From assembly GCF_007671685.1 (NCBI RefSeq), contig NZ_VCNL01000003.1, positions 346,131 to 410,130 on the forward strand: 64,000 nucleotides of DNA. The letters are read 5' to 3'. Numbering within the stretch: position 1 is the first letter of the stretch; the number at the start of each line of letters is the position of its first letter. The translations under genes and the position numbers were made by a program. The notes beneath the pieces were generated by a model, which did not search any database, was not told the DNA's origin, and saw nothing but the letters and a program-made list of their open reading frames with translations. Of the stretch, positions 2,099 through 64,000 are shown in pieces. The stretch is from Halorubrum salsamenti (lineage in GTDB: Archaea; Halobacteriota; Halobacteria; Halobacteriales; Haloferacaceae).

Positions 2099-2222
2099 TA
2101 TTTATAAAAGGTGGTAGCGATCCGGCAGTGAATACTTCCAAAGCCCCAGCCTCGCGCGACGCTCCTCGCACCCGGTGGGCGCTCGGAGGCGCGCGCCACC
2201 GCAGTTTCTTTATAAGTGATCG
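2099..2222 (+). repeat. Dispersed intergenic repeat element, copy A (short form)
   Basis: This copy fills the gap between the uracil-DNA glycosylase and glycerate kinase genes. In order it has a TTTATAA box (2101-2107), the core CCAAAGCCCCAGCC (2138-2151), a GC-rich stretch ending GGCGCGCGCCACCGCA, and a second TTTATAA in the same direction (2209-2215) followed by GTGATCG. The same parts in the same order occur in copies C, E and F. The hairpin-rich middle found in those copies is largely missing here. No terminal inverted repeat is recognisable. No protein-coding role is apparent. Confidence 0.75.
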
Positions 2223-15479: not shown

Positions 15480-15700
15480 TTTATAAATGGTTGACAGCAG
15501 ATCGGCGGAGAACTCTTCCAAATCCCCAGCCTCGTCGGTCGCCCGTCGCTTCGCTCCGGGGCAGCCGGCGGCGAAGCCGCCGGCGACCTCGCACGCGCTC
15601 CTCGTGGCCGCCGGTGGCGGCCACTCGGTGGCGCGCGCCACCGCACCGCCGCGTTCAGTTATAAACAGCCGTCTCCGTTCTGGGTTTAAATATTGCATCG
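15480..15700 (+). repeat. Dispersed intergenic repeat element, copy C
   Basis: This copy fills the gap between convergent cysS and pheA. In order: TTTATAA (15480-15486), core variant CCAAATCCCCAGCC (15518-15531), a perfect 9 bp hairpin GCCGGCGGC/GCCGCCGGC with a GAA loop, the phrase CTCGCACGCGCTCCTC, a second 9 bp hairpin GTGGCCGCC/GGCGGCCAC with a GGT loop, the phrase GGCGCGCGCCACCGCACCGC, then TTATAA (15659-15664) and GTTTAAATA (15684-15692). The same phrases are in copy E in the same order. Terminal inverted repeats are not recognisable here. Confidence 0.8.
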
Positions 15701-47489: not shown

Positions 47490-47936
47490 GATCGATAGCG
47501 GGAGTGGGTGTTTCAGAATCATGACAACGATCCAGTATTTAAACTATCGTGAGCGCCAGCAGCATCTACTTATAAACGCGGTGCGGTGGCGCGCGCCTCC
47601 GAGTGGCCGCCGAGGGCGGCCACGAGGAGCGCGTGCGAGGGAGCCCGCGGCCGCCTCTGGCGGCCGCGGCGAGGCTGGGGAGGTGTGAGGCTGTGCGATT
47701 GGGTGGGGCTCAAAGGGGCAGCCGTGAGGCGGGCGCAGGAGACGTAAGCACCGCAACGAAGGAGCGATAGCGACTGAGCGAGGAGCGCAGCGAGCGTGCG
47801 CCCGCCTCACGGCTGGGGCTTTGGAGAGCATCACCGCAGAGCCGTCGATCACTTATAAACCACCAACAGCAACACCCCGATCCGACTTATAAATGACCAC
47901 ACCACCACACTGAGAGACGTACTCCCGCTATCGATC
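47490..47936 (-). repeat. Dispersed intergenic repeat element, copy E (complete, with perfect terminal inverted repeats)
   Basis: 447 bp. It is bounded by GATCGATAGCGGGAGT at 47490-47505 and its exact reverse complement at 47921-47936. Read on the minus strand: TTTATAA (47887-47893 and 47853-47859), core CCAAAGCCCCAGCC (47811-47824), a 19 bp perfect inverted repeat (47797-47815 with 47719-47737), hairpin CCGCGGCCGCC/GGCGGCCGCGG, the phrase CTCGCACGCGCTCCTC, hairpin GTGGCCGCC/GGCGGCCAC, GGCGCGCGCCACCGCACCGC, and TTTATAA (47570-47576) before GTTTAAATA. No open frame resembles a transposase, so it looks like a non-autonomous element. Confidence 0.85.
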
Positions 47937-48060
47937 ACCGTTCTGTGTGTATTGATCGCAGTCGGATCGGGACATATCGGCTGTGGAGGGGTTCAACAGC
48001 ACCGGTTTGTGAGGAAGATCGGACGGAGCGGGCGATCAGATAAATCCGGTTCGGCCCACG

Positions 48061-59697: not shown

Positions 59698-60030
59698 GTC
59701 GATCACGGGAGTGAGTGTATCAGGCTGGGTGAGTGGTTGTTTATAAGTAGTCGAGCGGTGCCGCTGGCGGGTATTTATAAGCGATCGACTGGTCTGCGGT
59801 GAAGGCCTCCAAAGCCCCAGCCTCGTCGGTCGCCCTCCGCGTTGCTTCGGGCGACCGACTCCAGCGAGGGACCGAAGGTCCCTCTGGCAGCCGGCGCGCA
59901 GCGCCGGCGACCTCGTGCGGGCTGCGCACGCCCCCGCGTCGTTCTTTATAAGTGATCGTCGCAGCCGCTCACTCTCCTTTTAAACACCGTCTCGTCACCG
60001 CGATCTGTAACACCCGCTCTCGCTATCGAG
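59698..60030 (+). repeat. Dispersed intergenic repeat element, copy F (complete)
   Basis: 333 bp between convergent genes. The ends are imperfect inverted repeats: GTCGATCACGGGAGTGAGTG on the left and, as reverse complement on the right, CTCGATAGCGAGAGCGGGTG. In order: TTTATAA (59740 and 59774), GGTGAA, core CCAAAGCCCCAGCC (59809-59822), stem GGTCGCCC/GGGCGACC, hairpin GAGGGACC/GGTCCCTC with GAA loop, hairpin GCCGGCGC/GCGCCGGC, small hairpin GTGCG/CGCAC, TTTATAA (59945) with GTGATCG, CGCTCACTC and TTTTAAACACCGT. Confidence 0.82.
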
Positions 60031-63842: not shown

Positions 63843-64000
63843 ACGAGCGACACCGGAAGTGGGTGAATCAGATCGACATCGACCATACGGTGTTTAAAAA
63901 GAGTGAGCGACTGCGACGGTCACGTATACGGAACGACGTGGTCGGCGCGCGCCGCCGAGCGCTCGCAGGGTGCGAGTAGTGAGGGACTAGAGGTCCCTCT
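63843..64000 (-). repeat. Dispersed intergenic repeat element, copy G (cut by the window end)
   Basis: Read on the minus strand from the window end inward: hairpin GAGGGAC/GTCCCTC, the phrase CTCGCACCCTGCGAGCGCTC, GGCGCGCGCCGACC, then GACCGTCGCAGTCGCTCACTC and TTTTTAAACACCGT, which closely match the right side of copy F. The outer end GTGGGTG...ATCAGATC with ACCGGAAGT resembles the terminal repeat of copy E. It lies downstream of the dehydrogenase gene. The left half of the element is outside the window. Confidence 0.6.

Follow-up and report, generated by a model that had tools for sequence, protein, structure and literature searches.

The PATEs (palindrome-associated transposable elements) of Haloquadratum walsbyi do not code for protein, vary in sequence, and have near-terminal palindromes resembling the ones found in IS605 transposons; they are attacked by SMR-A repeats (PMC3119063). 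The omegaRNAs of haloarchaeal IS605 elements are known to be expressed (PMC12558985). Considered here are the hairpins in a 64-kb window, that is, the whole stretch of DNA analyzed, from a Halorubrum genome of 3.67 Mb. On balance, we favor the view that these hairpins belong to a palindromic mobile repeat of Halorubrum, non-autonomous and present in high copy, that is related to IS200/IS605 and whose G-rich strand is read by shape. A literature search revealed no earlier description of this Halorubrum repeat family.

The copy that drew attention is flanked by a citE-like gene and a gene of the VOC family, with these names assigned by reading the translations, and is one member of a dispersed intergenic repeat. 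On its + strand, hereafter the annotated strand, a full copy begins with GCGGTGAACACC and the core, followed by a long hairpin that is not always present; the arms of this hairpin are AGCCGCGAGG.../...CCTCGCGGCT, its base pairs CAAAG with CTTTG, and it contains an internal CCC/CCC loop. There follow a CA-rich stretch, CCTCCCCAGCCTCG, a hairpin designated S1, CTCCCTCGC, a hairpin designated S2, and finally GCGCGCCACCGC. Units of 51, 54 or 57 bp ending in the core are often found in tandem upstream. Arrays of this promoter-like unit were observed at L064, L138, L141, L174 and L300, and their spacing is almost always one of these three multiples of 3. A coding function suggested by such spacing was rejected: two frames on the G-rich strand are open to a similar extent (64 and 61 of 79), and variation is not greater at third codon positions than at the first two.

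The copy in question is housed within an outer, MITE-like repeat with terminal inverted repeats, CGGGAGTGAGTGTATCAG ... CTGTAACACCCGCTCTCGCTATCG, which extends from 59706 to 60028 on the + strand and was delineated from the sequence, a genome search with the terminal pattern, and an empty copy designated L277. The left copy of a flanking duplication, TTTATAAGCGATCG, occupies 59774 to 59787 and the right copy, TTTATAAGTGATCG, 59945 to 59958 (both +), the latter assigned from the sequence and by comparison with L277. The conserved end and core, GCGGTGAAGGCCTCCAAAGCCCCAGCC, at 59796 to 59822 (+), is defined by the exact 15-mers described below and a profile of 304 units; read on the G-rich strand, it forms the 3' end GGCTGGGGCTTTGG..TTCACCGC. 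The variable hairpin S1, GTCGGTCGCCC...GGGCGACCGAC, lies at 59825 to 59859 on the - strand and belongs to a set of 56 distinct simple S1 hairpins whose stems covary across copies. It is followed at 59866 to 59908 by a nested double-hairpin module, to which no strand is assigned, built from GAGGGACC-GAA-GGTCCCTC, a TGGCA spacer, and GCCGGCGC-GCA-GCGCCGGC. The long hairpin is absent, and at the usual place of S2 there is only a degenerate remnant, GTGCG-GGCTG-CGCAC (59915 to 59929, likewise without strand), which gave no match with model R1. The copy folds beyond its shuffles on both strands (z of -3.0 and -3.4).

The window contains further copies, which were scored with model R1. A short copy at 2101 to 2215 (+) carries S2 at 2157-2197 on the G-rich (-) strand (E 2.2e-8), and a copy at 15480 to 15665 (+) contains S1, a double-hairpin part, and S2 at 15593-15639 (-; E 4.5e-5). 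The full copy at 47494 to 47945 (-; E 8.8e-7) displays terminal inverted repeats GATCGATAGCGGGAGT/ACTCCCGCTATCGATC, the long hairpin, S1, and S2 at 47588-47634, where the G-rich strand is the + strand. Its segment 47577-47840 has a z of about -6.3 on both strands versus shuffles. At the edge of the window lies the S2 hairpin of another copy (63944 to 63984, +; E 1e-4).

The 15-base core, TCCAAAGCCCCAGCC, occurs in 48 exact copies in the source genome, whereas the reversed control gave 0. All 30 of the Halorubrum genomes in the sample contain it, in 1 to 122 copies each, and none of 118 genomes from 27 other genera of the same family does. An S2 covariance model, with 55 candidates scored per genome such that the counts are lower bounds, identified at least 10 to 55 copies per genome in 12 Halorubrum genomes; elsewhere in the family, 107 genomes gave no copy. 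The observation is confirmed, and the repeat extends well beyond the 64-kb window. Among 103 copies for which both flanking genes were predicted by simple ORF-based gene calls, the neighbors are convergent in 46, co-directional in 44, and divergent, the rarest setting, in 13. The co-directional cases divide by repeat strand into 24 and 20, and thus there is no strand preference relative to the neighboring genes. This setting fits a repeat tolerated at the 3' ends of genes better than it fits a promoter element.

The outer repeat is 128 bp in length, is bounded by terminal inverted repeats, CGGGAGTG/CACTCCCG, as in a MITE, and exists without the inner element as L277. Its terminal pattern has 24 matches in the genome and 0 in the reversed control. 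As can be seen by comparison, TTTATAAGCGATCG is present once in the empty L277 and on both sides of the inner element in filled copies. The putative short ends of the inner element, GCGGTG/CACCGC, pair in the fold. At the citE-VOC locus, about ten other species carry the element, in most cases reversed between ends that are alike (L288-L303), and genome G100 lacks it, the gap there being 105 bp; the difference in orientation suggests inversion or repeated insertion. In two Halorubrum species (L324-L343, L363-L373) the flank is TATA-free, GATCGTTGCTGGCGC / GCGATCGCTCGTTGCTTCGGCTGTACTGACC, as if another outer repeat served as host. The double-hairpin module also occurs without the core, in intergenic positions, in other halobacterial genera, and was the sole match in a plasmid BLAST search with the whole copy. 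The arrangement of stem-loop, 5-nt spacer, and stem-loop, with stems that vary, was observed on plasmids as well (L317-L323, L384-L390, L406-L409). To judge by these sequences, it appears to be an independent mobile hairpin module. The copies are nested, mobile-element-like repeats and not a single gene family.

All of the stems quoted in the initial annotation are present, those of the copy in question being GTCGGTCGCCC/GGGCGACCGAC (59825-59859), GAGGGACC/GGTCCCTC (59866-59884) and GCCGGCGC/GCGCCGGC (59890-59908). The hairpins compared there are not homologous, however: GCCGGCGGC in copy C and GCCGGCGC in copy F represent one hairpin of the double-hairpin module, the second hairpin of which is GAGGGACC, and CCGCGGCCGCC in copy E is a different stem. 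The proposal that pairing is kept despite changed sequence was nonetheless borne out with homologous stems, approximately 50 copies of each, which covary strongly, and the covariation check over copies that had been called for gave scores far above the shuffled and slid controls in two homologous helices. For the S2 helix (52 sequences in a gap-free homologous alignment) the covariation is 0.410, as compared to 0.127±0.011 for shuffled and at most 0.104 for slid partners; for the 18-bp arms of the long hairpin (54 sequences) it is 0.432, as compared to 0.127±0.009 and at most 0.066. The covariation expected of a structured RNA is thus significant in both S2 and the arms. Some positions employ all four Watson-Crick pairs, as at arm column 11/30 (CG 22, AU 16, GC 12, UA 3). 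Note that the sequences in both alignments were chosen for pairing in that register, which biases the percentage paired upward; the informative quantities are the number of pair types and the double changes. A search of Rfam gave no matches to the window at gathering scores, and in the loci tested no match to the element at E<=1.

Given that a mismatch read as G·T on one strand is read as A·C on its complement, the two provide a simple sequence test for the strand that is selected to fold in palindromic repeats. On the annotated strand, S2 contains 28 A·C versus 4 G·T mismatches (p=2e-5, from strict-anchor parsing). The arms contain 59 versus 11, with 33 of the 59 A·C mismatches at a single position; beyond the fourth position the numbers are 20 and 11 (p=0.15). 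The S1 stems, with 618 Watson-Crick pairs, 5 A·C and 4 G·T, show no asymmetry. Since the copies share ancestry, the p-values overstate independence. In the unpaired core, C>T changes (2.3% per site) exceed G>A changes (0.7%), and mutation bias does not explain the A·C excess because it would enrich G·T instead. The A·C excess on the annotated strand therefore corresponds to G·U wobbles on the opposite strand. S2 has a sole 2x2 internal loop, and when it was sought without fixing its letters, 79 of the 80 distinct hairpins had TC/TC there. On the G-rich strand this loop is GA/GA, and in 77 of 80 the closing base on the 5' side is a pyrimidine. Tandem GA preceded by a 5' pyrimidine forms sheared pairs that are stable in RNA and DNA alike. 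From the wobble asymmetry and the GA/GA loop, the folded strand is therefore the G-rich one, opposite to that originally proposed, and both RNA and single-stranded DNA fit. Against this assignment stand the single position that supplies much of the arm excess, the shared ancestry, and the symmetry of S1.

The source genome contains 17 tnpB loci and one IS200-type tnpA. The encoded TnpA is intact (134.9 bits, cut-off 55) and is accompanied by tnpB and both end hairpins. This complete IS605, at C17:259693-261332 (L490/L448) with tnpA at 259693-260055, is a candidate supplier of transposase in trans. Adjoining its left end is a double hairpin similar to that at 59866 to 59908. Many tnpB 3' ends have the form CCCCACCCTCAAGGAGC-GA-ACGGC-GTCA-GCCGT-GA-GCGAGTAGGGTGGGGTAGTTCAC, with examples such as GC-GA-ACGGC..GCCGT-GA-GC and CC-GA-GGCGC..GCGCC-GA-GG, and similar ones. 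The inner stems vary among copies (ACGGC, ACCGC, GGCGC, GGCC, GGGC), the GA/GA is constant, and a similar hairpin is held by the 5' ends. The 3' pattern is present in 19 of 29 Halorubrum genomes. Within the same genome, the motif AAGGAGCGA is common to the repeat and to the IS200/IS605 (tnpA/tnpB) ends. Of 172 long-hairpin loops, 99 carry GGAGCGA on the G-rich strand, as compared to 13 in shuffles, and 84 carry GGAGCGA-N(2-9)-GCGA, as compared to 2. When GA/GA hairpins were sought within these loops under strict stem lengths, 8 were obtained, no better than shuffles (6-12), and the claim for the long-hairpin loop is for that reason limited to the sequence motif. The 3' end of the repeat, GGCTGGGG...GTTCAC, may resemble the IS605 end GGGTGGGGTAGTTCAC, although the resemblance is suggestive only. 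The repeat has no tnpA or tnpB of its own, in that TnpA/TnpB similarity near cores was seen in only 6 of several hundred loci searched. An autonomous version with tnpB attached was sought among these loci and none was found. The likeness to IS605 ends lies at the level of motifs only, and this, like the failure to find a copy that carries a transposase, counts against the favored view. A weak match to Rfam HgcC (E 0.66, below threshold) was observed at L264:1122-1215, an IS605-type end finishing in GGAGGATGTCAA.

It is very improbable that each element gives rise, as initially proposed, to a small structured RNA from the + strand, starting near GTGAA about 25 bp past a TTTATAA box. The spacing itself is correct: 25 bp separate the TTTATAA at 59774 from the GTGA, and units that have a TATA-like box mostly place it 27 bp from GGTG. 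The + strand of the copy also folds better than its shuffles. TTTATAA is found at 59740, 59774 and 59945 in this copy, and 16 times in the window versus 0.05 expected. A TATA-like box, however, is present in 182 of 340 distinct core units and missing from the remaining 158, as it is from 33 of 33 units sampled from two species. Where present, TTTATAA is part of the flank and occurs in duplicate on either side of the insert; these boxes are thus, at least partly, duplicated target. Divergent gene pairs, moreover, are the rarest setting. The 87 A·C versus 15 G·T mismatches on the + strand are the opposite of what an RNA from that strand predicts, and its invariant loop is TC/TC rather than GA/GA. 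What endures from the earlier interpretation is a shape kept while sequence changes; its strand, promoter, and nature do not. A non-coding RNA from the G-rich strand, spread as a mobile element with copies acting in trans as omegaRNA-like guides or as stabilizers of mRNA 3' ends, is unlikely. It would accommodate the strand-specific wobble, the GA/GA loop, the strong covariation, and the preference for convergent gene ends, but the co-directional neighbors show no strand preference, no Rfam family was matched, and hairpins in single-stranded DNA would leave the same traces. It is also unlikely that tens to more than a hundred loci produce, from the G-rich strand, a Halorubrum-specific family of omegaRNA-like structured RNAs, used by TnpB in trans with the flank as guide; were this so, a transposase-less repeat would be kept by RNA-guided nucleases.

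Distinctly unlikely is the upkeep of perfect DNA palindromes without selection on a folded strand, by gene conversion, arm inversion, or template switching that swaps whole stems. The almost purely Watson-Crick S1 stems, the recurrence of identical stems at unrelated loci, and the common C-G/G-C swaps are in keeping with such processes, as are the loop-inverted copies L044, L161 and L187. These processes are strand-symmetric, however, and account neither for the predominance of A·C mismatches in S2 and the arms nor for the conservation of TC/TC in an internal loop that is not palindromic. Inversion of the long-hairpin loop between its arms was also observed in L130.

For the favored IS605-related mobile repeat, the evidence on the G-rich strand consists of the covarying helices, the invariant GA/GA loop, and the AAGGAGCGA motif of IS605 ends. 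The G-rich strand corresponds to the tnpB-sense strand of IS605 and, if read by shape, would have to fold as a single strand. The reader could be the HUH transposase TnpA, acting in trans on hairpins in single-stranded DNA; alternatively or in addition, the shape may serve as an omegaRNA-like scaffold. With shape being read, helices could change freely as long as the shape stays. Copies sit at the TTTATAAGCGATCG site of the second, terminal-inverted-repeat element and receive the small double-hairpin inserts. The doubling of TTTATAAGCGATCG at the flanks counts against a relationship to IS605-type elements, which are not known to produce a target duplication.

Among known systems, REPINs/RAYT likewise have paired, high-copy hairpins at the 3' ends of genes and are associated with a Y1 transposase, but the Halorubrum stems are not sequence-conserved, and the sole Y1 protein of the source genome is IS200-type, scoring 24.8 with the RAYT model (cut-off 80). 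The double-hairpin module is reminiscent of mitochondrial double-hairpin elements, which also have varied stems, and of the Haloquadratum SMR-A (PMC3119063), in that small hairpin-forming modules are inserted inside palindromes of other elements. Unlike SMR-A, it measures about 45-55 bp rather than about 110 bp, and no terminal inverted repeats are apparent in it. The subterminal hairpins with a GA/GA loop and variable inner stem, together with AAGGAGCGA, are shared with the IS200/IS605 elements of the same genome, which encode TnpA (Y1 HUH) and/or TnpB; the repeat encodes neither and has an additional long hairpin, S1, and a CA-rich segment.

There is a close likeness to the PATEs. Like them (PMC3119063), the Halorubrum repeat is high-copy, non-coding, and heterogeneous in sequence, lacks a transposase, has IS605-like near-terminal palindromes (here the GA/GA hairpins and AAGGAGCGA), and harbors small inserted repeats. 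It differs from the PATEs, which are without target duplication, in being nested in an element with terminal inverted repeats and in having TTTATAAGCGATCG twice in filled copies, and strict PATE membership is not claimed because of this duplication. The definition of PATEs also excludes terminal inverted repeats; in the Halorubrum repeat, the putative short ends GCGGTG/CACCGC pair with each other. The strand-specific covariation and GA/GA loop of the Halorubrum repeat are not described for PATEs in the sections of PMC3119063 consulted. A genus-wide haloarchaeal repeat is thereby tied to IS605 end hairpins by a fixed GA/GA loop in otherwise free helices, a link that points to the reading of shape in archaea, whether by HUH transposases or by TnpB RNAs. 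How PATE-like repeats persist becomes a directly testable question. On the basis of these comparisons, the most probable identity of the Halorubrum repeat is that of a palindromic element related to IS605, with the Haloquadratum PATEs as near counterparts.
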